Shown here one piece after another: positions 11,949 to 46,967 of a stretch of 60,980 nt of DNA (positions are counted from its first letter, which is position 1; the number at the start of each line of letters is the position of its first letter). The DNA is taken from positions 1-60,980 of the forward strand of contig PWEL01000029.1 in NCBI GenBank assembly GCA_003553945.1, read 5' to 3'. This DNA comes from Mollicutes bacterium. Lineage in GTDB: Bacteria > Bacillota_I > Bacilli_A > Izemoplasmatales > Izemoplasmataceae. The notes under the pieces are model-generated. The model ran no database searches and was not told the origin of the DNA. It was given only the letters and a program-made list of their open reading frames with translations. The position numbers were made by a program, and so were the translations under genes.

Positions 11949-11980
11949 CGAAGCGCGCATTCCTGCGCGCTTCGGTTTTT
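11949..11980. terminator. Bidirectional terminator between nuclease and desaturase genes
   Basis: GAAGCGCGCA-TTCC-TGCGCGCTTC followed by GGTTTTT. The convergent desaturase gene ends inside the same element (its stop is at 11981-11979); A residues precede the hairpin for the other direction. Confidence 0.8.
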
Positions 11981-13463
11981 ATTCAAGGTCTTTTTTAAGT
12001 TCCTGGGTGACGAGCTTGCCGCTGGTGATCGCGATGGGCACCCCGGCGCCGGGGTGGGCGCTGCTTCCGGCGAAATAGAGATTCCTGACATAGGGGTGGA
12101 CGTTCTTCGGGCGCCAGTAGTTGCTCTGAAAGAGCGTGGGGGCGAGGCCGAACGTCGACCCGTACATGGCGTTCAGATCCCCTTCGAAATCCTTCGGTGT
12201 CATGATCTTTAGGACATCGATCTGTTCGTCGATATCCTCAAGACCCTCGATGGATCTGAGCTTCTTGAAGACCTTTTCCTTGTAATCTTCAAGCGTGGCG
12301 TCATCCCACGTCGCTTTTGAAGTCTTGAGTTCGGGGACAGGGACGAGCACATAGAGATTCTCCTTGCCTTCCGGCGCAACGGTCTCATCCACCTGCGAGG
12401 GGCTGTAGATATAGAAGGCGGGGTCGCTCGGGAGCTTGCCGCTGAAGATCTCACGAAGGTTCTCGTCGAAATCATTGCCGAAATAGAGATTATGGACCGT
12501 GAGGGACGGGACTTTCTTGTTGAGGCCTATGTAGAAGAGAAGCACACTGCAGGAATAGTCCATCGAATGGATCTTCTTCTCCGTATATTTCCCTTTCGCC
12601 GTTTTATCCTTGATGAGGTTGTTCATCGCATAGGGGAAGTCGGCGTTCATGATGACCGCGTCGCTATAGACTGGAGTGCCGTTTATTTTGACGCCCTTCG
12701 TCTGCTTGTTGGCGAAGAGCACCTCCTCGACTTCCGTATTCAGCTTCACGGTACCGCCGAGTTCCTTGAAACGCTTCTCGAGCGCTTCAACATAGCTATA
12801 CATGCCGCCCTTGCTGTAGGAGACACCGTAAAGCGTCTCGATCATGGGGATGATGGTATAGATGGATGGGCCCTTCCTCGGGCTTATGCCGATATAGAGT
12901 GTCTGAAAGCTTAGCAGTTTCTGTATCTTCTCATCATCGACATACTTGCTGATGGCGTGATGGGCGCTGTCGAAAGTCCTGAGCTTGAGGCCCTGTCTCA
13001 ATGTCTTCGGATTATAGAAATCACGGGGGCTTCTGAAACTCTTCTCGATGAAGTGGTTCTTCGCGACAAGATACTTCTCATACGTCTCGTTGAGATATTT
13101 GAGATACCCTTTGGCCACATCCTCACCGCGCTTTTCGAGGTCGTCGATCAGATCCACGAGGTTCGTGTTGACCGCCATCTTCTCCCCGTCGGGGAAGGTC
13201 ACATTGTAGATGGGGTCGAGATACTCGAAGCTGATGTAATCTTCTGGGTCGGCGCCCGTATAGGAAAGCACGTCGTTATAGATATGAGGCATCATGACGA
13301 TTGTCGGGCCGACATCGAACATGAAACCGCCCTTCTCGATACGGCTCATCTTGCCGCCGAGCTGATTCCTGCGTTCGTAGATCGTCACATCATAGCCGTC
13401 GCTCTGCAGCATGAGGGCGGCGCTGAGTCCGGCGACACCGCCGCCGACGACACTTATCTTCAT
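11979..13463 (-). CDS. Carotenoid desaturase, CrtI/CrtN family (phytoene or dehydrosqualene desaturase)
   Basis: 494 residues. The N-terminal FAD-binding dinucleotide fold reads VVGGGVAGLSAALML (residues 4-18) with the acidic end in YERR and GGKMSRIE, then FDVGPTIVMMP, standard in CrtI/CrtN. The C-terminus has the family closing motif NLYFAGSSAHPGAGVPIAITSG. These enzymes dehydrogenate a C40 (phytoene) or C30 (dehydrosqualene) chain at the membrane; the chain length cannot be set from sequence alone. It is divergent from a phytoene/squalene synthase-type gene 147 bp away, which makes a carotenoid role firm. AAAGGAG is 7 nt before the ATG. Confidence 0.93.
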   Translation of the reverse strand: MKISVVGGGVAGLSAALMLQSDGYDVTIYERRNQLGGKMSRIEKGGFMFDVGPTIVMMPHIYNDVLSYTGADPEDYISFEYLDPIYNVTFPDGEKMAVNTNLVDLIDDLEKRGEDVAKGYLKYLNETYEKYLVAKNHFIEKSFRSPRDFYNPKTLRQGLKLRTFDSAHHAISKYVDDEKIQKLLSFQTLYIGISPRKGPSIYTIIPMIETLYGVSYSKGGMYSYVEALEKRFKELGGTVKLNTEVEEVLFANKQTKGVKINGTPVYSDAVIMNADFPYAMNNLIKDKTAKGKYTEKKIHSMDYSCSVLLFYIGLNKKVPSLTVHNLYFGNDFDENLREIFSGKLPSDPAFYIYSPSQVDETVAPEGKENLYVLVPVPELKTSKATWDDATLEDYKEKVFKKLRSIEGLEDIDEQIDVLKIMTPKDFEGDLNAMYGSTFGLAPTLFQSNYWRPKNVHPYVRNLYFAGSSAHPGAGVPIAITSGKLVTQELKKDLE

Positions 13464-13551: not shown

Positions 13552-13580
13552 TTTACAAACAACCGTATTTCCGTTATAAT
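13552..13580 (+). promoter_or_regulatory. Promoter of the crtM/B-type operon
   Basis: TTTACA (13552-13557), 17 bp, TATAAT (13575-13580). The synthase ATG at 13611 follows a TGGGGG ribosome site. It diverges from the desaturase promoter. Confidence 0.75.
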
Positions 13581-13610: not shown

Positions 13611-14471
13611 ATGGACAAGTACGAACATGTGCGCCAGATCATCGAAGATTCGAGTGTCACCTTCTCCAAGGCCTTCGGTGAACTCGAAGAGAACAAGCGG
13701 AACGCTGTGTTCTCCATCTATGCGTATTGTCGAATCGCCGATGACGCGGTGGATGTGGATGGTGACATCGACAAGGTCGATGAACTGGAGAAGAAAGTGA
13801 AGGACACCTTCAAAGGCGCCGTCCCCGACGACCCTGTCTTCGAGGCGCTGTATGAGACCATCATGCGCTACCCCAGCGACGAGAAACCCTACCTTGAACT
13901 GCTCGAAGCCATGCGCGACGACTACCACAACACCCCCATCAAAACCGAGGACGACCTGGAGGAATACTGCTACAAGGCGGCCGGCACGGTAGGACTCATG
14001 TTGATACCGGTGCTCGCGAGCCAGAGCTACAAGGAGAACTCCGGCAAGCTCAAGGACGTCGCCATCGAACTGGGAAAAGCCATGCAGCTGACCAACATCC
14101 TTCGCGATGTCAAGGAGGACCTCGGCCAGGGCCGTGTCTATTTCCCCGATGAAGCCATCGAAAAGCAGGGCATAAAGATCAAGACACTGCGCACGGGTAC
14201 AGTCACCGATGAATACAGGGCCCTCGTCGAGCACTATATCAAGAAAGCGAAAGAAAAATACCAGGTCTTTTATGACAACGCGGACCTCTTCGACAAGGAT
14301 GCGGTCCTCCCCACGTATATCGCCGCCAAGTTCTATGAAGGCATCCTCGATGAGATCCGCAAAGCAGGGCATACCAATGTCTCACGACGTCATTTCGTCA
14401 GCAGCATCCGCAAATTCTTTATAAAGCGCCGCGCGAAGCGCGCCCTCAAAAAACGGGGCATCCTCGAATGA
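13611..14471 (+). CDS. Phytoene/dehydrosqualene synthase (CrtB/CrtM family)
   Basis: 286 residues. Both Asp-rich prenyl-diphosphate sites are present: YAYCRIADDAVD (DDAVD at 44-48) and LTNILRDVKEDLGQGRVYFP near residue 160. The enzyme joins two prenyl diphosphates head to head: GGPP to phytoene or FPP to dehydrosqualene. Its stop overlaps the next gene by 4 bp (ATGA), so it is coupled to a prenyl-alcohol-kinase-like gene. Together with the divergent desaturase it makes a desaturated carotene; genes for end-group tailoring are not in view. Confidence 0.93.
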   Translation: MDKYEHVRQIIEDSSVTFSKAFGELEENKRNAVFSIYAYCRIADDAVDVDGDIDKVDELEKKVKDTFKGAVPDDPVFEALYETIMRYPSDEKPYLELLEAMRDDYHNTPIKTEDDLEEYCYKAAGTVGLMLIPVLASQSYKENSGKLKDVAIELGKAMQLTNILRDVKEDLGQGRVYFPDEAIEKQGIKIKTLRTGTVTDEYRALVEHYIKKAKEKYQVFYDNADLFDKDAVLPTYIAAKFYEGILDEIRKAGHTNVSRRHFVSSIRKFFIKRRAKRALKKRGILE

Positions 14472-15097
14472 TCGGGGTGGCGGTCTCTTATCTGTTCGTC
14501 GGGGCAGTACTTCTCCTCGCCTCATTCTTCGAAAGGATAAGACTTTTGAGCGACGAAGGGAGCCGGAAGCTCATCCACGTCGCTGTCGCGCACTGGATCC
14601 TGATCGCCATCGTCTTCTTTGAAGGGCGTCCCCTGCTCGCGAGTGTTGTGCCGGCCTCCTTCATCCTGCTCAACTACCTCTCCTACCGTTTCAACCTCCT
14701 CTCCGCCATGGAAAGGGACGAACGAAGAGCGGAGGACCTCGGGACCGTATACTACGCGATCTCCCTTACCATCGTATCCTATATCGCCTTCCGCTACGAC
14801 CTGCTCGCCCACGGGGCCATCGCCATCCTGGCCATGGGCTATGCGGACGGTCTCGGCGCCGTGCTGGGCAAACGTTTCGGCAGACGGAAGCTTTATCACA
14901 TGAAGACCTATATCGGCTCGCTCGCGGTGTTCTTTTTCACATTCGTCATCACCTATGGTTTCTTCCAGACCGCTTTCGTCACCGTGCTGGTATTATCCCT
15001 GGCCACCGCAGCGGTCGAGCTCTACACGCCGAAAGGCTTCGATAACCTCACTGTGCCCCTGTTCCTATTCTTCTCAGCGGTGGTGTTAATCCCGTGA
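14468..15097 (+). CDS. Phytol/dolichol kinase-like membrane protein (VTE5/SEC59 type)
   Basis: 209 residues with about six membrane helices. RKLIHVAVAHW (33-43) and GYADGLGAVLGKRFGRRKL (about 122-140) are the conserved blocks of the CTP-dependent polyprenol kinase family that contains dolichol kinase and the plant phytol kinase VTE5. It would phosphorylate a free prenyl alcohol at the membrane. It overlaps both the CrtB/CrtM-type gene (ATGA) and the DUF92 gene (GTGA), so all three are one translational unit. Substrate is inferred from the neighbours only. Confidence 0.82.
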   Translation: MIGVAVSYLFVGAVLLLASFFERIRLLSDEGSRKLIHVAVAHWILIAIVFFEGRPLLASVVPASFILLNYLSYRFNLLSAMERDERRAEDLGTVYYAISLTIVSYIAFRYDLLAHGAIAILAMGYADGLGAVLGKRFGRRKLYHMKTYIGSLAVFFFTFVITYGFFQTAFVTVLVLSLATAAVELYTPKGFDNLTVPLFLFFSAVVLIP

Positions 15098-15825
15098 CTT
15101 TTTTCATTATCGGTTTCACCCTAAGCGCCACCATCGCAATCGCCGCCTACTACAAACGCGCCCTCAATACAAGCGGCGCCATGAGCGCCATCATCACCGG
15201 AACCCTCGTCTTCGGATTCGGAGGGTTTTTCCCTTACCTCATATTCATCAGCTTCTTCGCCCTCTCGAGCGGCATCCAGTTCTTCACCGATACAAAACAG
15301 ACGGCGCAGCGCAGCTATAGGCAAGTGCTCGCCAACGGACTGATCGCCGTGCTCTTCATCACGCTATACTATCTAGAGGGTGAGACAATCTACTACGCCC
15401 TCTTCATCGGCAGCGTCGCAGTAAGCGCCGCTGACACGGCGAGCAGCGAGGTCGGCATACTCAGCAAGCGTTCGCCAGTCTCCATCTTCACCTTCCGCAG
15501 GATGGAAAAGGGCCTCAGCGGCGCCATCACGCCACTCGGCCTCGTCGCAGGCCTCCTCACAGCCCTTTTCTACGCCTTGCTCTCGCTCATCCCCCTCGGT
15601 CTCTCCTTCTTCATCCCCATCCTCATCACAGGGTTCCTCGGCACATTGATCGACAGCGCGCTCGGTACTGTGCAGGTCAAATACAAGCATAAAAAGACCA
15701 TCAGCGAAGAAAAAAGCGAAAACGCGACGCATTACGCCGGTTTCCGCTGGCTCGACAACGACCTGGTCAATTTCCTGACCAATGCCATCGCGGTCTCCGT
15801 GATGTTCATCATCTGGATCATCTAG
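15094..15825 (+). CDS. DUF92/TMEM19 family membrane protein (VTE6-like prenyl-phosphate kinase candidate)
   Basis: GTG start overlapping the upstream stop; 243 residues and about six membrane helices. The pattern LNTSGAMSAIITGTLVFGFGG near the start, the ADTASSEVGIL block (about 110-120) and the C-terminal GFRWLDNDLVNFLTNAI are characteristic of DUF92. The plant member VTE6 acts as phytyl-phosphate kinase, the step after VTE5. A VTE5-like plus VTE6-like pair directly behind a prenyl-diphosphate-using synthase suggests salvage of isoprenoid alcohols to diphosphates. Confidence 0.82.
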   Translation: MTFFIIGFTLSATIAIAAYYKRALNTSGAMSAIITGTLVFGFGGFFPYLIFISFFALSSGIQFFTDTKQTAQRSYRQVLANGLIAVLFITLYYLEGETIYYALFIGSVAVSAADTASSEVGILSKRSPVSIFTFRRMEKGLSGAITPLGLVAGLLTALFYALLSLIPLGLSFFIPILITGFLGTLIDSALGTVQVKYKHKKTISEEKSENATHYAGFRWLDNDLVNFLTNAIAVSVMFIIWII

Positions 15826-15844
15826 CGCCTCAAGGCGCTTTTTT
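15824..15844. terminator. Bidirectional terminator
   Basis: AGCGCC-TCA-AGGCGCT followed by six T on the plus strand. The stop codon of the convergent PHP gene (15845-15843) lies at its edge. Confidence 0.75.
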
Positions 15845-16667
15845 ATTTGAGACGCATGGCCGCGAGGAATCTCTCGAGCGCTTCTCCTTCGAGCGGCGTG
15901 CTACCGAGCTCACCGTGGCTCGAGTCATCGTCGATGCCGTGATAGTCGCTGCCCGCTGTGATGAATTGCCCCCTGGATTCAGCGAACGCCTTGAAACGCA
16001 CCTCATCGGCATCGGTATGCAGGGGATAGACCGCCTCAATCGCGTCATAGTCATATTCCAAAACTTCTTCGCGGACTTTGTCGCTGATCAGCCCCGGATG
16101 GGCAAGGGATATGACAATGTCGAAACGCCGCAAAAGTCTAATGCCTTCTTCTGTCGAAAGCTCCGTGCTGGGGACGTAGGCTTTCGCATGTTCGCCGAGG
16201 AAGCGGTCGAAGATCTCATCATGCGTATAGGGATAAGCGTCCATAATCGCCCTGGCGATGTGCGGCCTGGCGATGATGCCGTCGGAATGGCTGACGACCT
16301 GTTCGTAAGTGATGCTGATATCATAGAAACGCTTTAGATTTTCGATAAAACGCTTCGCGCGGTTCTCCCTTCCTTCTCGGATATAGGTGTAGTATGCCTG
16401 CATCGGCTCGGCCTGATAGGAATCATCACGGAAATACCCGAGGAGATGTACGCTTTTTCCGTCCTTCAGGGTGGAAAGCTCGATGCCGGGAATATAGGTC
16501 ATGTCGTGCGTCTTCGCAAGGGCGCGGTTCTTTTCTACACGGGCGCATACATCATGGTCGGTGATTGCCAGCACATCGACGCCCTTGGCCTTCGCCTTTT
16601 TGAACAATGCTTCCTGGGTGAGCTTCCCATCCGATTCTATTGTGTGGGTGTGGAGGTCTGCTTTCAT
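15843..16667 (-). CDS. PHP-domain phosphoesterase (YciV/RNase AM-like)
   Basis: 274 residues. DLHTHTIESDGKL at residues 4-16, ITDHDV (36-41), the PGIELST segment, ARPHIARA, LAHPGL and GSDYHG are the metal-ligand blocks of the standalone PHP family that hydrolyses 3',5'-nucleoside bisphosphates and 5' ends of small RNAs. It ends the transcript that begins with the Fe-type alcohol dehydrogenase and lies 3 bp after the YhaN-like gene, next to nucleic-acid enzymes, which fits a role in nucleotide turnover. Confidence 0.85.
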   Translation of the reverse strand: MKADLHTHTIESDGKLTQEALFKKAKAKGVDVLAITDHDVCARVEKNRALAKTHDMTYIPGIELSTLKDGKSVHLLGYFRDDSYQAEPMQAYYTYIREGRENRAKRFIENLKRFYDISITYEQVVSHSDGIIARPHIARAIMDAYPYTHDEIFDRFLGEHAKAYVPSTELSTEEGIRLLRRFDIVISLAHPGLISDKVREEVLEYDYDAIEAVYPLHTDADEVRFKAFAESRGQFITAGSDYHGIDDDSSHGELGSTPLEGEALERFLAAMRLK

Positions 16668-16670
16668 GGC

Positions 16671-19007
16671 TCATCCTCTTTCCAAGGTGATATGATTGTG
16701 CTTGATATCTAGCTCTTCAAGCGCTTCTGACTCGCGTAGATGGCAGGTGAACAGCAGGATCTGTCGGTCGGACTGGACCCTGTCCAGCGTCTCAAGGGCG
16801 CGTTTTAGGCGCTGTGCATCGAAATTGACGAAGGCATCGTCAAGAATCAGGGGGACATCGCCTTTCTCGAGCGCATCCAGTGTGCCGAGACGGATGGCGA
16901 GGTAGATCTGGTCGAGCGTGCCCGCTGAAAAGAACGTTTTATCCTCGAAGTCCTTATGGCTTGGATGCTCTACTCTGAAATCCAGCGACTTGGGCAGCTT
17001 GATACGGGTATAAGCATCGTCGGTGAAACGTTCGAGATAGTGCCCCACATGATGTTCGAGCGTCGGGGAGAAGGTCTCGGCGATGGTGGTGGATACATCT
17101 TCAAGCAGTTGCTTGGCCTTCTCATAGACCTTGCGCTTCCTAAGGAGCCGCGATGTCTCCTCCTCAGCCTGCAAACGTTCATGTTCGATGGTCGCGAGCG
17201 GCCGATGTCTCTCTTTTCTCGCTTCATGGGAGGCTTCTTTCTCCGTGATGCGCCGCTCAATCCGTTCGAGTTCCCGTTGCTTCTTTTCCAGGGAGGGCCT
17301 GTTGGATTCGTAGCCATCGAGCTTTTCGCGCGGGGCGGATTCGACCCTGGCCCTGTAGTCCTCAAAGCGCTCGCCTTCGAGCATCTCTTCGAGGTATTCA
17401 TGGAGCTTGCGCATCCTGATGAGGCAGTCTAGGCCTTCCGGCGTGAAGGGGAGGGCGAAACGCTTGAGCAGCGGGGCATACTCTTTTGACAGTTCCTCCA
17501 TCGCTTCATCGATTTCCCTGATGCGCTCATTGTTTCTTTTGTACTGTTCGCGGCGGGACTCCTCCCTGCCGTAGTAGGCCAGAAACGCCTCGGTATCAGG
17601 GACACTGTAACGCTCGAGGATGGCATCGATCTGTTCCCTGGTCTCTTTCACGTCATGGCTTTTGTTCTCATACATAGCTTCGGCGGCTTCGTGCCACTTC
17701 TTCAAAGCGGGGATCTTCCGGAAGTAGAGATGAAGGAAATAAACAAATGCGACGAGGGAGATGAATAGAAGAATGATGAAGGGCAGTGCTGAAATTTCAA
17801 GCAGTAGATGGAGGACTGCCAGCAGAACCCCTGATATTGCGGTCATGACTGTCACGCTCAAAGCGCGGAGTGCACGGCTTTTCCCTTTCTTATGCAGGGT
17901 CCGGCGCGCATCGACAGCCTCCTCGAGTTTTTCCAGATTCCGGATGTCGTCTTGTCCGGTGAGTTGTTTCAAGGTGGACCTGTCTTCCTTCAACGCTTGG
18001 AAAGCGTCGTCGTCAAGCACGTCCTCCTCTGTCGAAAGGCTCTTTCTCTCCGTACGGAGATCCCTGATATGATCGCGGTGGCTTTCTGCCTGCTCGAAAC
18101 ATTCGGGGTAGGCCTCGATGGCTTTTTCAATCGCTGGATAATCAACGCTTCCCTCTCCTTGTGAAGCCTTCTCCACCATGCGCCTTATCTTCTCGACACG
18201 CTCATCGATGGCATCGAGCCTCTGTTTCTCCTTCATGTTCTCCTGTTTTCGCAGGGTTTTTTCAAGATCTTCCTTCTCCGCATTCAAGGCGCGCTTATCC
18301 TCGCGGATTTCATCGATCCTCCGCCTTTCCTCAAGCAGGTATTCATGATGCTTTTTGGCGTTCTCATACTCTTCATCGAGGGATTCTTTCCGCTTAAGCG
18401 CTTGAGCGTAGGGTTTCGTCGGCGCGCGGGCGGTTCCGATTTCAGAGATGGCTTTTTCGAGGTGTCTAACAGCTTTTTCTACGGAAAAAGACTCCGTCTG
18501 TGTCGCGTTGAGATTGCGGAGGCGGGTGAGAAGGTCGTCCTGGGCCTCCTCATCAGTCTGCGGGGAAAGCTGCCTTAGGCTCAGCGTGTTCCGATAGAGC
18601 CGGTAGGGCATGTCGATGAAGGCGGCGATATCCGGGAGCTTGCTGACAGGGTCGATATCGAGCGAGTCGGTGATCTCTTCTCCGTTCACCTCTTTATAGA
18701 GTCTTACGCTGTCGGACCCCTTTTTGAAGGTCCTATGCAGCCGATATTCAGTTCCATCCTTCTCAAAAAGCAGCGCGCCCTTGTAAGGGGCGTTGCTTCT
18801 TGGTTGGTACCACTTGTGCAGGTCGAGATAGCGTTTCTGCTTGACATCAGGGTTCAAGAATCCATAGAACATGCCCTCTATGAAAGCATGGAGTGTGGAT
18901 TTTCCGCTCTCGTTGAGACCATAGATAAGATTGATGCCTGAACTGAGCGATAGAGAATGGTTTTCGAACATTCCGAACCCGTCGATGTGCAGGGAAGTAA
19001 GCTTCAT
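16671..19007 (-). CDS. YhaN-like SMC/Rad50-type ATPase
   Basis: 778 residues. Walker A GLNESGKST at 30-38 after FHIDGFGMF-like start (SLHIDGFGMFENHS). The middle is a long charged coiled coil broken near residues 370-420 by two hydrophobic helices, a hallmark of YhaN-type proteins as opposed to SbcC. The C-terminal half-site has FSAGTLDQIYLAIRLG (signature) and LILDDAFVNFD (Walker B) followed by ILLFTCH. It overlaps the YhaO-like gene by 4 bp, so the two probably form an SbcCD-like nuclease complex, perhaps at the membrane. Confidence 0.9.
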   Translation of the reverse strand: MKLTSLHIDGFGMFENHSLSLSSGINLIYGLNESGKSTLHAFIEGMFYGFLNPDVKQKRYLDLHKWYQPRSNAPYKGALLFEKDGTEYRLHRTFKKGSDSVRLYKEVNGEEITDSLDIDPVSKLPDIAAFIDMPYRLYRNTLSLRQLSPQTDEEAQDDLLTRLRNLNATQTESFSVEKAVRHLEKAISEIGTARAPTKPYAQALKRKESLDEEYENAKKHHEYLLEERRRIDEIREDKRALNAEKEDLEKTLRKQENMKEKQRLDAIDERVEKIRRMVEKASQGEGSVDYPAIEKAIEAYPECFEQAESHRDHIRDLRTERKSLSTEEDVLDDDAFQALKEDRSTLKQLTGQDDIRNLEKLEEAVDARRTLHKKGKSRALRALSVTVMTAISGVLLAVLHLLLEISALPFIILLFISLVAFVYFLHLYFRKIPALKKWHEAAEAMYENKSHDVKETREQIDAILERYSVPDTEAFLAYYGREESRREQYKRNNERIREIDEAMEELSKEYAPLLKRFALPFTPEGLDCLIRMRKLHEYLEEMLEGERFEDYRARVESAPREKLDGYESNRPSLEKKQRELERIERRITEKEASHEARKERHRPLATIEHERLQAEEETSRLLRKRKVYEKAKQLLEDVSTTIAETFSPTLEHHVGHYLERFTDDAYTRIKLPKSLDFRVEHPSHKDFEDKTFFSAGTLDQIYLAIRLGTLDALEKGDVPLILDDAFVNFDAQRLKRALETLDRVQSDRQILLFTCHLRESEALEELDIKHNHITLERG

Positions 19008-20080
19008 CGCGCACCCTCCTCTGTGTCAAGAAGCGCCCGCAGGGCAGCTTTCAGCACTTCCTCATCACGAGCTTTCGGAGGCTGTTTCTCGAAACGCTGG
19101 ATCATCTGTTCGACAATGGTATCCTTATAGCGCTGCTTGAGAGTCTCTAGATGAAGCGCCGCCTGGGTCTCGTCGCGGAATTCAATATAATGGAAATAGT
19201 CGTCGAGGATGCTTTTGAATTGAAGCGGGTCGATCGACATGGTCTCGTCGGCCTCCCCTGTCAGCCGCACGCGCACAAAACCATCGCGCAGCCCCGAAGG
19301 AAGGTCTTTCACCTTGTCGAGAATCTCCGATTCGCTTTCCACTTTGCTCACGGAGATCTCGCGCACATGATACGAGCGGATCTGCGAGGGGACGAACTGC
19401 GCCCGGACAAATCCGCGCACGTCGAGTTCGCCTTCAATGTAGCCTTTTTGCTCGGTTTCTGTAAAATCGAGGGGCTCCGGATTTCCGGGGTAGGCGATGT
19501 GCGGCGCTAGGAATGCATGCTGATGGATATGGCCGAGGGCGATGTAGTCGAACGGCAGGTCCTTGAGGGTCGGCACATCGGTAAGATAGTTTTCATCATG
19601 CAGCCTCTCTACATCACCGTGCAGGAGGAGGACATTCGCTTTATCAGGATCGACGCCATCGGCAAGCTCCTTCAGGAAGGCTTCGCTGAAATCATGGGTA
19701 TTGATGCCGTAGACATCCATCGTCTCTAAGGACACCTTGGGCGAACGCTTATTGAAAGTGTGGATGTTGTGGGCGCTGAGAAGACTTCTATAGGCCTTGT
19801 TGTGAAGAAACCCGTCGTGGTTCCCGATCAGAATAAAGACCTCGGCATCGAGGTGTTTCAGTTTTTCAAAGAGCCGCTCCATTTCATGAAGCGGCATATA
19901 TTGATCATCGAACATATCGCCGGCTATGAAAAGCGCTCCGGCATCGCGTGCGGCATCTATGACTCGCAAGAAGGACTCCCTCAATTCGTAGAGCCTCTTC
20001 TCATGAGCGGCAGAATCAGTGAACGCCGTATGCGTGAGCTTGGCGTTCAGATGGGCATCAGCGGTATGGATGAATTTCAT
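19004..20080 (-). CDS. YhaO-like metallophosphoesterase, SbcD/Mre11 type DNA exonuclease
   Basis: The ATG at 20080 is preceded by GGAG 7 nt upstream and starts the family sequence KFIHTADAHL. The five phosphoesterase motifs are seen: DAHL (9-12), FIAGDMFD, IGNHDG, LLHGD and ALGHIHQH. 358 residues. This is the nuclease partner of the YhaN-like ATPase coded just downstream. SbcCD-type complexes open hairpins and process broken DNA ends; the exact role of YhaO/YhaN is less well known. Confidence 0.9.
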   Translation of the reverse strand: MKFIHTADAHLNAKLTHTAFTDSAAHEKRLYELRESFLRVIDAARDAGALFIAGDMFDDQYMPLHEMERLFEKLKHLDAEVFILIGNHDGFLHNKAYRSLLSAHNIHTFNKRSPKVSLETMDVYGINTHDFSEAFLKELADGVDPDKANVLLLHGDVERLHDENYLTDVPTLKDLPFDYIALGHIHQHAFLAPHIAYPGNPEPLDFTETEQKGYIEGELDVRGFVRAQFVPSQIRSYHVREISVSKVESESEILDKVKDLPSGLRDGFVRVRLTGEADETMSIDPLQFKSILDDYFHYIEFRDETQAALHLETLKQRYKDTIVEQMIQRFEKQPPKARDEEVLKAALRALLDTEEGAR

Positions 20081-20084
20081 CGAC

Positions 20085-21188
20085 TCACTCCTTGGCCCGC
20101 TTGAATATTTCATAAAGCGCCTCGTCGCTCAGAGCTTCAAAGCGCGGAAATAGTCGTTTAAGCTCCACGACGTATTCGCTCGGGGATTCACTCAGTTCAG
20201 TCGTGGGAACATCACCGGTGAAAAGCGTGTTGACAAACGCTTCAAAAGCGATATAGAGATCGACGCTCGCATACGGAGTCTTGGAGAAAAGCGTCGTGAT
20301 ATCCTTGCGTGCCTTTTCGTCAAGAATCTCGAGACGATATTCAAGATAAGGCAGGACGCCATCACGTAAGAATGCATTATGCGGCGTCCTGGGATGAACG
20401 CTCTCAATTGTATCACTCATCTGATGAAGCGGGAACACACTCTTTGGCGCACCGATGCTATGGATGAGAAAACTCGCATAACCCAGCGTGTCGATGCTAT
20501 CAAGTGTGAGGGTCGCTTCAAAGGCCAGTTTCGCCCTGTCGTAGGCGAACGGGTTCATATCGCCCTGCATGATTTCGAACGCACGTATCATGATATCAAG
20601 GCGCGTATATAGAAGTCTCTCCTTCACGAGATGTTCATAACATGAGGGCGAGATGAAGATGGCATCGGGATAGAGGGATTCATCCTTGAGTCGTATATAC
20701 CGGCTGTCGTCATCATCATAGACGAGCGCCTGTTCATTCAACGCCCCCTGGAGCGAAGGCGTCGTCATGACCGCGAAGACAGGCAGCGCTGTATTCTTGA
20801 ATGGTGGTTCCTCCCTGCTTTTAAGCCAGGCCGACAGGAAGTCGGCTGGTTCATAGAGAAGCCTTCCCAGAATTTTACCGGCATCGATGACGCTGCCGCC
20901 ACCGAGGGTGAGGATGGCATCCGCCTCAAAAGCACGGCCGCTTTCGACCGCTTCCCTCAGTTTGTCTTCAGTGATGGGCGGGGCGCATCCATCGAACAAG
21001 CGATACGCCACCCCCTTCGCATCCAGAGCACTCTGGATGCTCCCGAGCATGTCATGACATGTCATGGCCACATGCCTGTCCGTCAGAATGAACACCCTTT
21101 TGAAACCTAAAGAAAAAAGGCGGTCCAGAAAGCCGTCCTGGTCCTTGAAATAGACCTGCATGGGAAGATGTGCAAAGAATTCGTCCAT
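20085..21188 (-). CDS. Iron-containing alcohol dehydrogenase family protein with altered metal site
   Basis: 367 residues. LTLGGGSVIDAGKI (about 92-105) is the nucleotide-binding motif of Fe-ADHs and the C-terminal helical domain follows. In the metal region the usual D-x3-H reads LDIMIRAFE: the Asp is there but the first His is Arg. The later SFLIHSIGAPKSVFPLHQM keeps two His residues at the expected spacing. A changed ligand set may mean a different metal or loss of activity. First gene of a four-gene operon with the YhaO/YhaN pair, 4 bp from yhaO. Confidence 0.8.
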   Translation of the reverse strand: MDEFFAHLPMQVYFKDQDGFLDRLFSLGFKRVFILTDRHVAMTCHDMLGSIQSALDAKGVAYRLFDGCAPPITEDKLREAVESGRAFEADAILTLGGGSVIDAGKILGRLLYEPADFLSAWLKSREEPPFKNTALPVFAVMTTPSLQGALNEQALVYDDDDSRYIRLKDESLYPDAIFISPSCYEHLVKERLLYTRLDIMIRAFEIMQGDMNPFAYDRAKLAFEATLTLDSIDTLGYASFLIHSIGAPKSVFPLHQMSDTIESVHPRTPHNAFLRDGVLPYLEYRLEILDEKARKDITTLFSKTPYASVDLYIAFEAFVNTLFTGDVPTTELSESPSEYVVELKRLFPRFEALSDEALYEIFKRAKE

Positions 21189-46241: not shown

Positions 46242-46967
46242 TCACAACACTCCAAGGGTGATGAAGAGCAGATTCATAAGATAAAGCACAAGCGCTGTGG
46301 ATAAAGGAAGGAAAAGTGTATCCCACCCGTGCTTCGCATACGCCTCGACGAAAGTGGACACCGAGGAGACGACCGCGCCGATCAAGAGCGCGACCCACCA
46401 GGGATATCCATAAAGCCACAGCAACAATGACACGACGATAAAGACACCGACATCCATCGCGATACTTCCGGTCCAGGTCTTCTTTCTATCCGTCCCCGGC
46501 AGTGAAAGACGGCGTCTTCCGAAACGCTTGCCTATAAGCGCCGCAAGCGCGTCGCCGATACCCCAGCTCAACACCGCGACGATGACGATGACATCCGAGC
46601 CATGCGGCAGAACCTCCGCTAAGGCAATCAACGCCGCAAAGGAGAAAAGCGCAAGCAGTCCGGAGCGCTTCATTTCACCACCACGACGGGACCTGTCGAC
46701 GAAAAACCGCTTATAAAACGGCATGCGCTCCAATATCGAAAGCCCGACATAAATCCCCGCCATGAATATAGCGATGACCAGCAGGATCTCCCCTGCCGCA
46801 GCGAACAACTCAATAAATAAAAAAATCGAAAGCGCAAACCCGATATGCTGGGTCTTCCGCACCACCTCCCCGGGCGCCTTCAAGACCGCACGCAAAAAAA
46901 CGGAGAGTCCCAGAAGCACCACGGTGAAATAACCGACCAGCACAGCGATTCCAATCAATAGGCTCAT
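46242..46967 (-). CDS. Polyprenol/phytol kinase-like or CTP-transferase membrane protein
   Basis: 241 residues, seven to eight membrane helices. VVRKTQHIGFAL near residue 35 and WGIGDALAALIGKRFGRRRL (about 135-154) with KTWTGSIAM are the conserved blocks shared by dolichol/phytol kinases and CDP-diacylglycerol synthases; the RK-x-x-H and short length favour the kinase side. It is a second member of the family in this window (the first at 14.5-15.1 kb). Good GAGGCGG site. Confidence 0.8.
   Translation of the reverse strand: MSLLIGIAVLVGYFTVVLLGLSVFLRAVLKAPGEVVRKTQHIGFALSIFLFIELFAAAGEILLVIAIFMAGIYVGLSILERMPFYKRFFVDRSRRGGEMKRSGLLALFSFAALIALAEVLPHGSDVIVIVAVLSWGIGDALAALIGKRFGRRRLSLPGTDRKKTWTGSIAMDVGVFIVVSLLLWLYGYPWWVALLIGAVVSSVSTFVEAYAKHGWDTLFLPLSTALVLYLMNLLFITLGVL

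Follow-up and report, generated by a model that had tools for sequence, protein, structure and literature searches.

The window, a 60,980-nucleotide stretch of a Mollicutes contig (PWEL01000029.1), comes from a wall-less sediment bacterium whose MAG spans 1.17 Mb and is 64% complete. The first-pass annotation had placed a carotenoid synthase gene and two kinase-like genes, each overlapping the next by 4 bp, at 13611-15825; this reading was confirmed, as the open reading frames lie at these coordinates and the family assignments are partly supported by curated models. The locus comprises the following features:

11979-13463, minus strand: CrtI/CrtN-family carotenoid desaturase gene (crtI), divergent from the trio (TIGR02734 crtI_fam, 441 bits, cut-off 238)
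13552-13580, plus strand: sigma-70-like promoter, TTTACA-17-TATAAT (11/12 consensus positions, assigned by consensus match alone)
13611-14471, plus strand: CrtM/CrtB-type synthase gene (crtM), 286 aa, ATG start
14468-15097, plus strand: VTE5/SEC59-like gene, 209 aa, ATG start, 4-bp overlap with the synthase gene
15094-15825, plus strand: DUF92 (VTE6 family) gene, 243 aa, GTG start, 4-bp overlap with the VTE5-like gene
15824-15839, plus strand: intrinsic terminator-like hairpin and T-run at the DUF92 stop codon, AGCGCCTCAAGGCGCT TTTTT

The junctions within the trio read ATGA (synthase/VTE5-like) and GTGA (VTE5-like/DUF92), 4 bp each. The promoter-like site lies 30 bp 5' of crtM and, with the terminator-like site, encloses exactly the synthase, VTE5-like and DUF92 genes, which are predicted to form a single transcription unit. 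This arrangement is not due to chance, because the gene order and mostly -4/-1 bp overlaps recur in relatives at ~35-70% protein identity. Many relatives also have a crtI gene next to crtM, encoded on one strand or the other. Downstream of the trio, the window encodes a PHP phosphoesterase (15843-16667) followed by an SbcC-like AAA ATPase and an SbcD-like phosphoesterase (16671-20113, minus strand); in the window's family, synteny is seen for the PHP and ATPase genes.

The synthase was assigned to the SQS_PSY family (Pfam PF00494, E 1.6e-60, 205.5 bits against a cut-off of 26) and has both Asp-rich Mg-diphosphate motifs intact (DDAVD and DVKED). Curated models give it no exact sub-function because its scores stay below the NCBIfam equivalog cut-offs for CrtB, HpnC and HpnD (best score, HpnD with 173 bits against 279). 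Among solved structures, CrtM 8is6 and phytoene synthase 5iys come nearest, followed by S. aureus CrtM. When aligned to the latter, the position equivalent to F26 is Phe22 in the window's enzyme and phenylalanine in 23 of 24 homologues, the exception being L125 (Leu). In mutagenesis of S. aureus CrtM, a bulky residue at this position favours FPP and C30 products, and the phenylalanine found here may point to FPP use and a C30 product. Overall, the enzyme is predicted to be CrtM-like and to perform head-to-head prenyl condensation.

For the middle protein, Pfam and NCBIfam scans gave nothing above cut-off, a profile search of the PDB found no relative, and a query against plasmid records returned no match. 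Across 62 VTE5-like sequences, residues E30, K34, H37, D127, G150, E184 and D192 are invariant, and a charged RK..H clamp lies near the N-terminus (R33 in 61/62, K34 and H37 in 62/62). The same clamp has been proposed to bind CTP in a verified Plasmodium farnesol/geranylgeraniol kinase (PMC10849223). We identify the protein as VTE5/SEC59-like because the RK..H, D and K[ST]..G residues are invariant, because its relative in Soehngenia longivitae was named phytol kinase VTE5 (PMC7763609) and, weakly, because of a CdsA-like fold. The AlphaFold model (pLDDT 95) has CdsA 4q2e as its best PDB fold match, which is a weak one (Foldseek E 0.05; Z 7.3 over 151 residues); CdsA is a CTP-using enzyme. The middle protein is predicted to be an integral membrane, CTP-dependent prenol kinase. 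Prenol kinases of the SEC59/COG0170 type share a superfamily with dolichol and diacylglycerol kinases, and sequence does not reveal the substrate. A second, distant VTE5/SEC59-like (COG0170) membrane protein is encoded elsewhere in the window (46242-46967, minus strand); it aligns to the VTE5 profile with an hhalign probability of 98.9, has no Pfam match and has relatives in other genomes of the window's family, and is possibly a diacylglycerol or dolichol kinase.

The third protein matches DUF92 (Pfam PF01940, E 4.9e-53, 180.5 bits against a cut-off of 27.5) and falls under the cut-off of NCBIfam TIGR00297 (100.9 bits against 205.85), as do its Eubacterium and Acholeplasma homologues. Plant VTE6, a verified prenyl-phosphate kinase, is a member of the DUF92 family, and the window's protein is a predicted prenyl-monophosphate kinase of this family, integral to the membrane. 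A DUF92 profile search of the PDB found no relative, and the AlphaFold model (pLDDT 96) has CdsA, weakly, among its top fold matches; for both putative kinases, the modeled similarity to CdsA is too low to trust alone. VTE5 and DUF92 constitute a single open reading frame in four loci (L080, L090, L121 and L137) and are joined in frame in L111. As the two are fused as well as adjacent, there is strong, genomic evidence that the putative kinases act in consecutive steps. An open reading frame at 3148-6723 of L111 was considered as a synthase-kinase fusion and rejected, its N-terminal part being in the wrong frame, which leaves only VTE5 and DUF92 fused. Common descent of VTE5 and DUF92 was unsupported (hhalign probability 9.9).

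The trio is widespread, which leaves standing an idea that the first-pass annotation had staked on conservation elsewhere. In the window's family, DUF92 and synthase genes occur together in 18 genomes and form a contiguous trio in 17, mostly with -4/-1 bp junctions; in the eighteenth (G022), a contig edge leaves only the end of the synthase. A VTE5 profile scan of genome contigs gathered 80 named loci, 46 of which (manual count) carry a contiguous trio, in Mollicutes, Clostridia and spirochaete-labelled MAGs. Trio-bearing isolates include Acholeplasma equifetale, Paracholeplasma vituli, Eubacterium callanderi, Acetobacterium dehalogenans, Acetobacterium wieringae and Soehngenia longivitae, and the named loci that share the window's gene order belong to Mollicutes and Candidatus Izimaplasma MAGs, which marks the source of the window as Izemoplasma-like. 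Over 24 trios, the three proteins have mean pairwise identities of 40, 47 and 36%, and their distance matrices correlate at 0.69-0.81, as would be expected for genes that travel together, with shared species history adding to the value. An even draw of 392 genomes from the phylum contained DUF92 above cut-off in 22, the synthase family in 19 and both in 16, where ~1 was expected by chance (Fisher p 6e-21, uncorrected for relatedness, related genomes not being independent); three had only the synthase and six only DUF92. The two genes are adjacent in all 16 co-occurring genomes. Thirteen have the order synthase-VTE5-DUF92, and the other three (f4 genomes G150, G156 and G426) have VTE5 upstream of crtI and DUF92 immediately after the synthase.

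Genomes that break the pattern were also considered. Within the window's family (f1), all synthases seen with intact motifs have the VTE5-DUF92 pair, and the only synthases without it (G015 and G018) have lost the catalytic Asp, with RNAVV and SDAVR replacing DDxxD; the degenerate synthase of G018 sits at the syntenic locus. G006 retains the pair although the motifs of its synthase are degenerate. Such degenerate-Asp SQS_PSY homologues (L043, L046, L047 and L125; genomes G006, G015 and G018) may be decaying or repurposed carotenoid synthases. G074 and G119 have adjacent crtI and synthase genes without DUF92 and possess FPPS and the MEP pathway, which is the conventional arrangement. The pair was found with no accompanying synthase gene in G027, G033 and G034, in several loci from Clostridium and Tissierella, and in others. 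Because it persists without a synthase or beside a degenerate one, the pair appears to be a general prenyl-diphosphate device that is mostly, and not exclusively, tied to carotenoids. The earlier claim of a tie to carotenoid synthesis is upheld by the conserved adjacency to the synthase and narrowed by the synthase-free pairs of some Clostridium, Tissierella and Izemoplasma relatives.

Genes for precursor supply were sought family by family. The trans-polyprenyl synthases (PF00348, FPPS/GGPPS) had no match in 14 of the 22 trio genomes tested and were found by the same search in 14/14 control genomes; a profile made from the phylum's own polyprenyl synthases agreed with this result. The negative genomes include three on a single contig (G201, G220 and G234) as well as four from the window's genus, of which two reach 96% completeness. 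PF00348 is present in the other 8/22, including f4 genomes G150, G156 and G426, so salvage is not the only possible route there. The window's own genome and its genus carry the MEP marker IspG, most f4 genomes have HMG-CoA reductase instead, and neither was found in G201. A similar combination, the MEP pathway present and FPP synthase missing, has been described for an Izemoplasmatales genome (PMC7761423). Overall, many trio genomes keep a synthase that consumes FPP/GGPP and have no recognised maker of these substrates besides the proposed salvage pair. UppS is represented by one PF01255 gene in 41/41 genomes, PF00348-negative ones included, and because it is universal even where FPPS is absent, some prenyl-diphosphate source must exist for it. 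A NUDIX gene adjoining the pair in L044 was considered as an IPP isomerase and rejected, as it had no curated IPP isomerase match.

We favor the reading that the VTE5-DUF92 pair charges a prenol, probably farnesol, in a CTP-dependent manner for use by the carotenoid synthase, and hold it to be likely, with some reserve. The VTE5-like membrane kinase would use CTP to convert farnesol (or geranylgeraniol) to its monophosphate, the DUF92 protein would place a second phosphate on the prenyl monophosphate to give the diphosphate, the synthase would join two diphosphates (probably FPP) into a C30 product, and the desaturase of the CrtI family, encoded divergently, would make the pigment. The prenyl alcohol would be drawn from the environment or from the cell's own turnover. 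The operon anatomy, its conservation, the fusions, the intact synthase motifs and the lack of a PF00348 match in many trio genomes are observed; the kinase activities, the use of CTP, and the identity and source of the alcohol are inferred. Where a trans-polyprenyl synthase is absent, as in the window's genus, the pair probably supplies most of the FPP/GGPP used for the pigment. The first-pass proposal that prenyl-alcohol recycling feeds carotenoid synthesis has become likelier, given the VTE5-DUF92 fusions and the many trio genomes in which FPPS/GGPPS went undetected, and its emphasis has moved from recycling to what is now probably the main supply where the chain synthase is absent. A broader proposal is that wall-less and other anaerobes decoupled carotenogenesis from chain synthesis, having lost the FPP/GGPP synthase and become obligate scavengers, through a dedicated VTE5-DUF92 pair within the carotenoid operon, of prenols such as farnesol or geranylgeraniol from decaying phototrophs. 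We offer this tentatively and at somewhat below an even chance, because MAG gaps, another E-prenyl synthase or internal recycling could explain the missing FPPS.

Several other explanations were weighed. The pair might serve recycling and not supply, in a cell that makes its own FPP/GGPP and only retrieves the prenol that phosphatases or prenyl-ester turnover set free, thereby keeping the synthase saturated. The polyprenyl synthase of 8/22 trio genomes (the three f4 genomes included) and the IspG of the window's own genome are consistent with this, whereas the 14/22 trio genomes without a PF00348 match, complete ones and the window's genus among them, make it unlikely. We are rather more doubtful that the two proteins are kinases for another membrane lipid (diacylglycerol, a dolichol-like polyprenol or undecaprenol) whose neighbors merely share a role in the membrane or in light stress. 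SEC59/COG0170 includes dolichol and diacylglycerol kinases, pairs without a synthase exist and the window encodes a second, distant COG0170 paralogue. However, tight adjacency to the synthase across families, fusion of VTE5 to DUF92 and the degenerate motifs of synthases that lack the pair all argue against other lipids, as does the family membership that DUF92 proteins share with VTE6, a verified prenyl-phosphate kinase (PMC9782597).

Little credence is given to a supply by UppS, a cis-prenyltransferase that would provide the synthase perhaps with short Z-prenyl diphosphates and render the kinases incidental. Its single gene in every genome, also in those without PF00348, speaks for this, but genomes lacking carotenoid genes have it just the same, so that it does not track the carotenoid pathway. 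Moreover, known CrtM/CrtB enzymes take E-prenyl diphosphates, and the co-occurrence of VTE5 and DUF92 would be left unexplained. Hardly credible is a plant-like function, in which phytol is converted by the pair to phytyl diphosphate, destined for a tocopherol-like or quinone product, with the synthase as just a neighbor. A tocopherol-cyclase-like gene (PF14249) does lie beside the cluster in 14 loci, but the window was found to have none; a non-exhaustive scan of the neighbors recognised no homogentisate prenyltransferase, and the 4-bp coupling is with the synthase.

The preferred reading, prenol charging for carotenoid synthesis, has partial precedents. The crtM-crtN C30 cluster of Staphylococcus and Enterococcus likewise combines a CrtM/CrtB-family synthase with a CrtI-family desaturase. 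Its hosts make their own FPP, and it is not known to have VTE5/DUF92 partners. In plants, and partly in cyanobacteria, VTE5 and VTE6 act in series, a SEC59-like, CTP-preferring prenol kinase being followed by a DUF92/COG1836 monophosphate kinase that yields the prenyl diphosphate (PMC9782597). In contrast, the pair described here shares its operon with a carotenoid synthase and belongs to anaerobes that lack chlorophyll and are mostly wall-less or clostridial. It is fused in several lineages, often occurs where no chain synthase was found and has a predicted substrate that is probably farnesol or geranylgeraniol. Plasmodium PfPolK, a CTP-dependent farnesol/geranylgeraniol kinase, has the same RK..H clamp, and prenol salvage in this parasite can bypass the MEP pathway (PMC10849223). 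PfPolK differs in serving prenylation, dolichol and ubiquinone, in having no identified monophosphate-kinase partner and in lacking a CrtM operon.

The first-pass annotation had regarded the arrangement as undescribed in bacteria. The pathway argued here is new in the literature searched, but the genes had already been listed together in part: Soehngenia longivitae 1933P (L085) has the same crtI-crtB-VTE5 set, reported among its lycopene-biosynthesis genes without a mechanism, DUF92, conservation or the idea of prenol salvage (PMC7763609). This list was the sole bacterial mention of VTE5 with carotenoid genes found in the literature searched, where nothing joined heliorhodopsin with phytol kinase or DUF92 with carotenoid terms. 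A 2022 review noted that prenol-salvage kinases are largely unidentified outside photosynthetic organisms and urged a search in animals and pathogens (PMC9782597). The operon, its fusions and the culturable isolates offer small, paired bacterial kinase candidates with a colored read-out. If correct, prenol charging would explain carotenoid production in bacteria without FPP synthase and would imply that prenyl alcohols are traded within anoxic sediments.

Further genes were observed around related loci. Heliorhodopsin-family genes (PF18761 in the one scanned) adjoin the carotenoid/VTE5/DUF92 cluster in L089, L091, L096, L103, L107, L108, L110 and L134, mostly from Acholeplasmataceae/Tenericutes MAGs, and photolyase-family genes follow DUF92 in several of them; these surroundings may constitute a light-response neighborhood. 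The tocopherol-cyclase-like gene (PF14249 in the one scanned), whose 14 loci include L088, L096, L104, L105, L107, L109, L112, L114, L115 and L118, is possibly a carotenoid hydratase or other lipocalin-like enzyme. In gut and uncultured Clostridia MAGs (L120, L122, L128, L131-L133, L135, L136 and L141), a VTE5-like gene without DUF92 adjoins a gene of the 1-deoxyxylulose-5-phosphate synthase family (as assigned on L128), again an isoprenoid context. Lastly, crtI has as its neighbor in Soehngenia (L085) and a Tissierellales MAG (L079) a gene for an M48 protease, whose N-terminal domain is that of a CAAX prenyl protease in L085, the one scanned.
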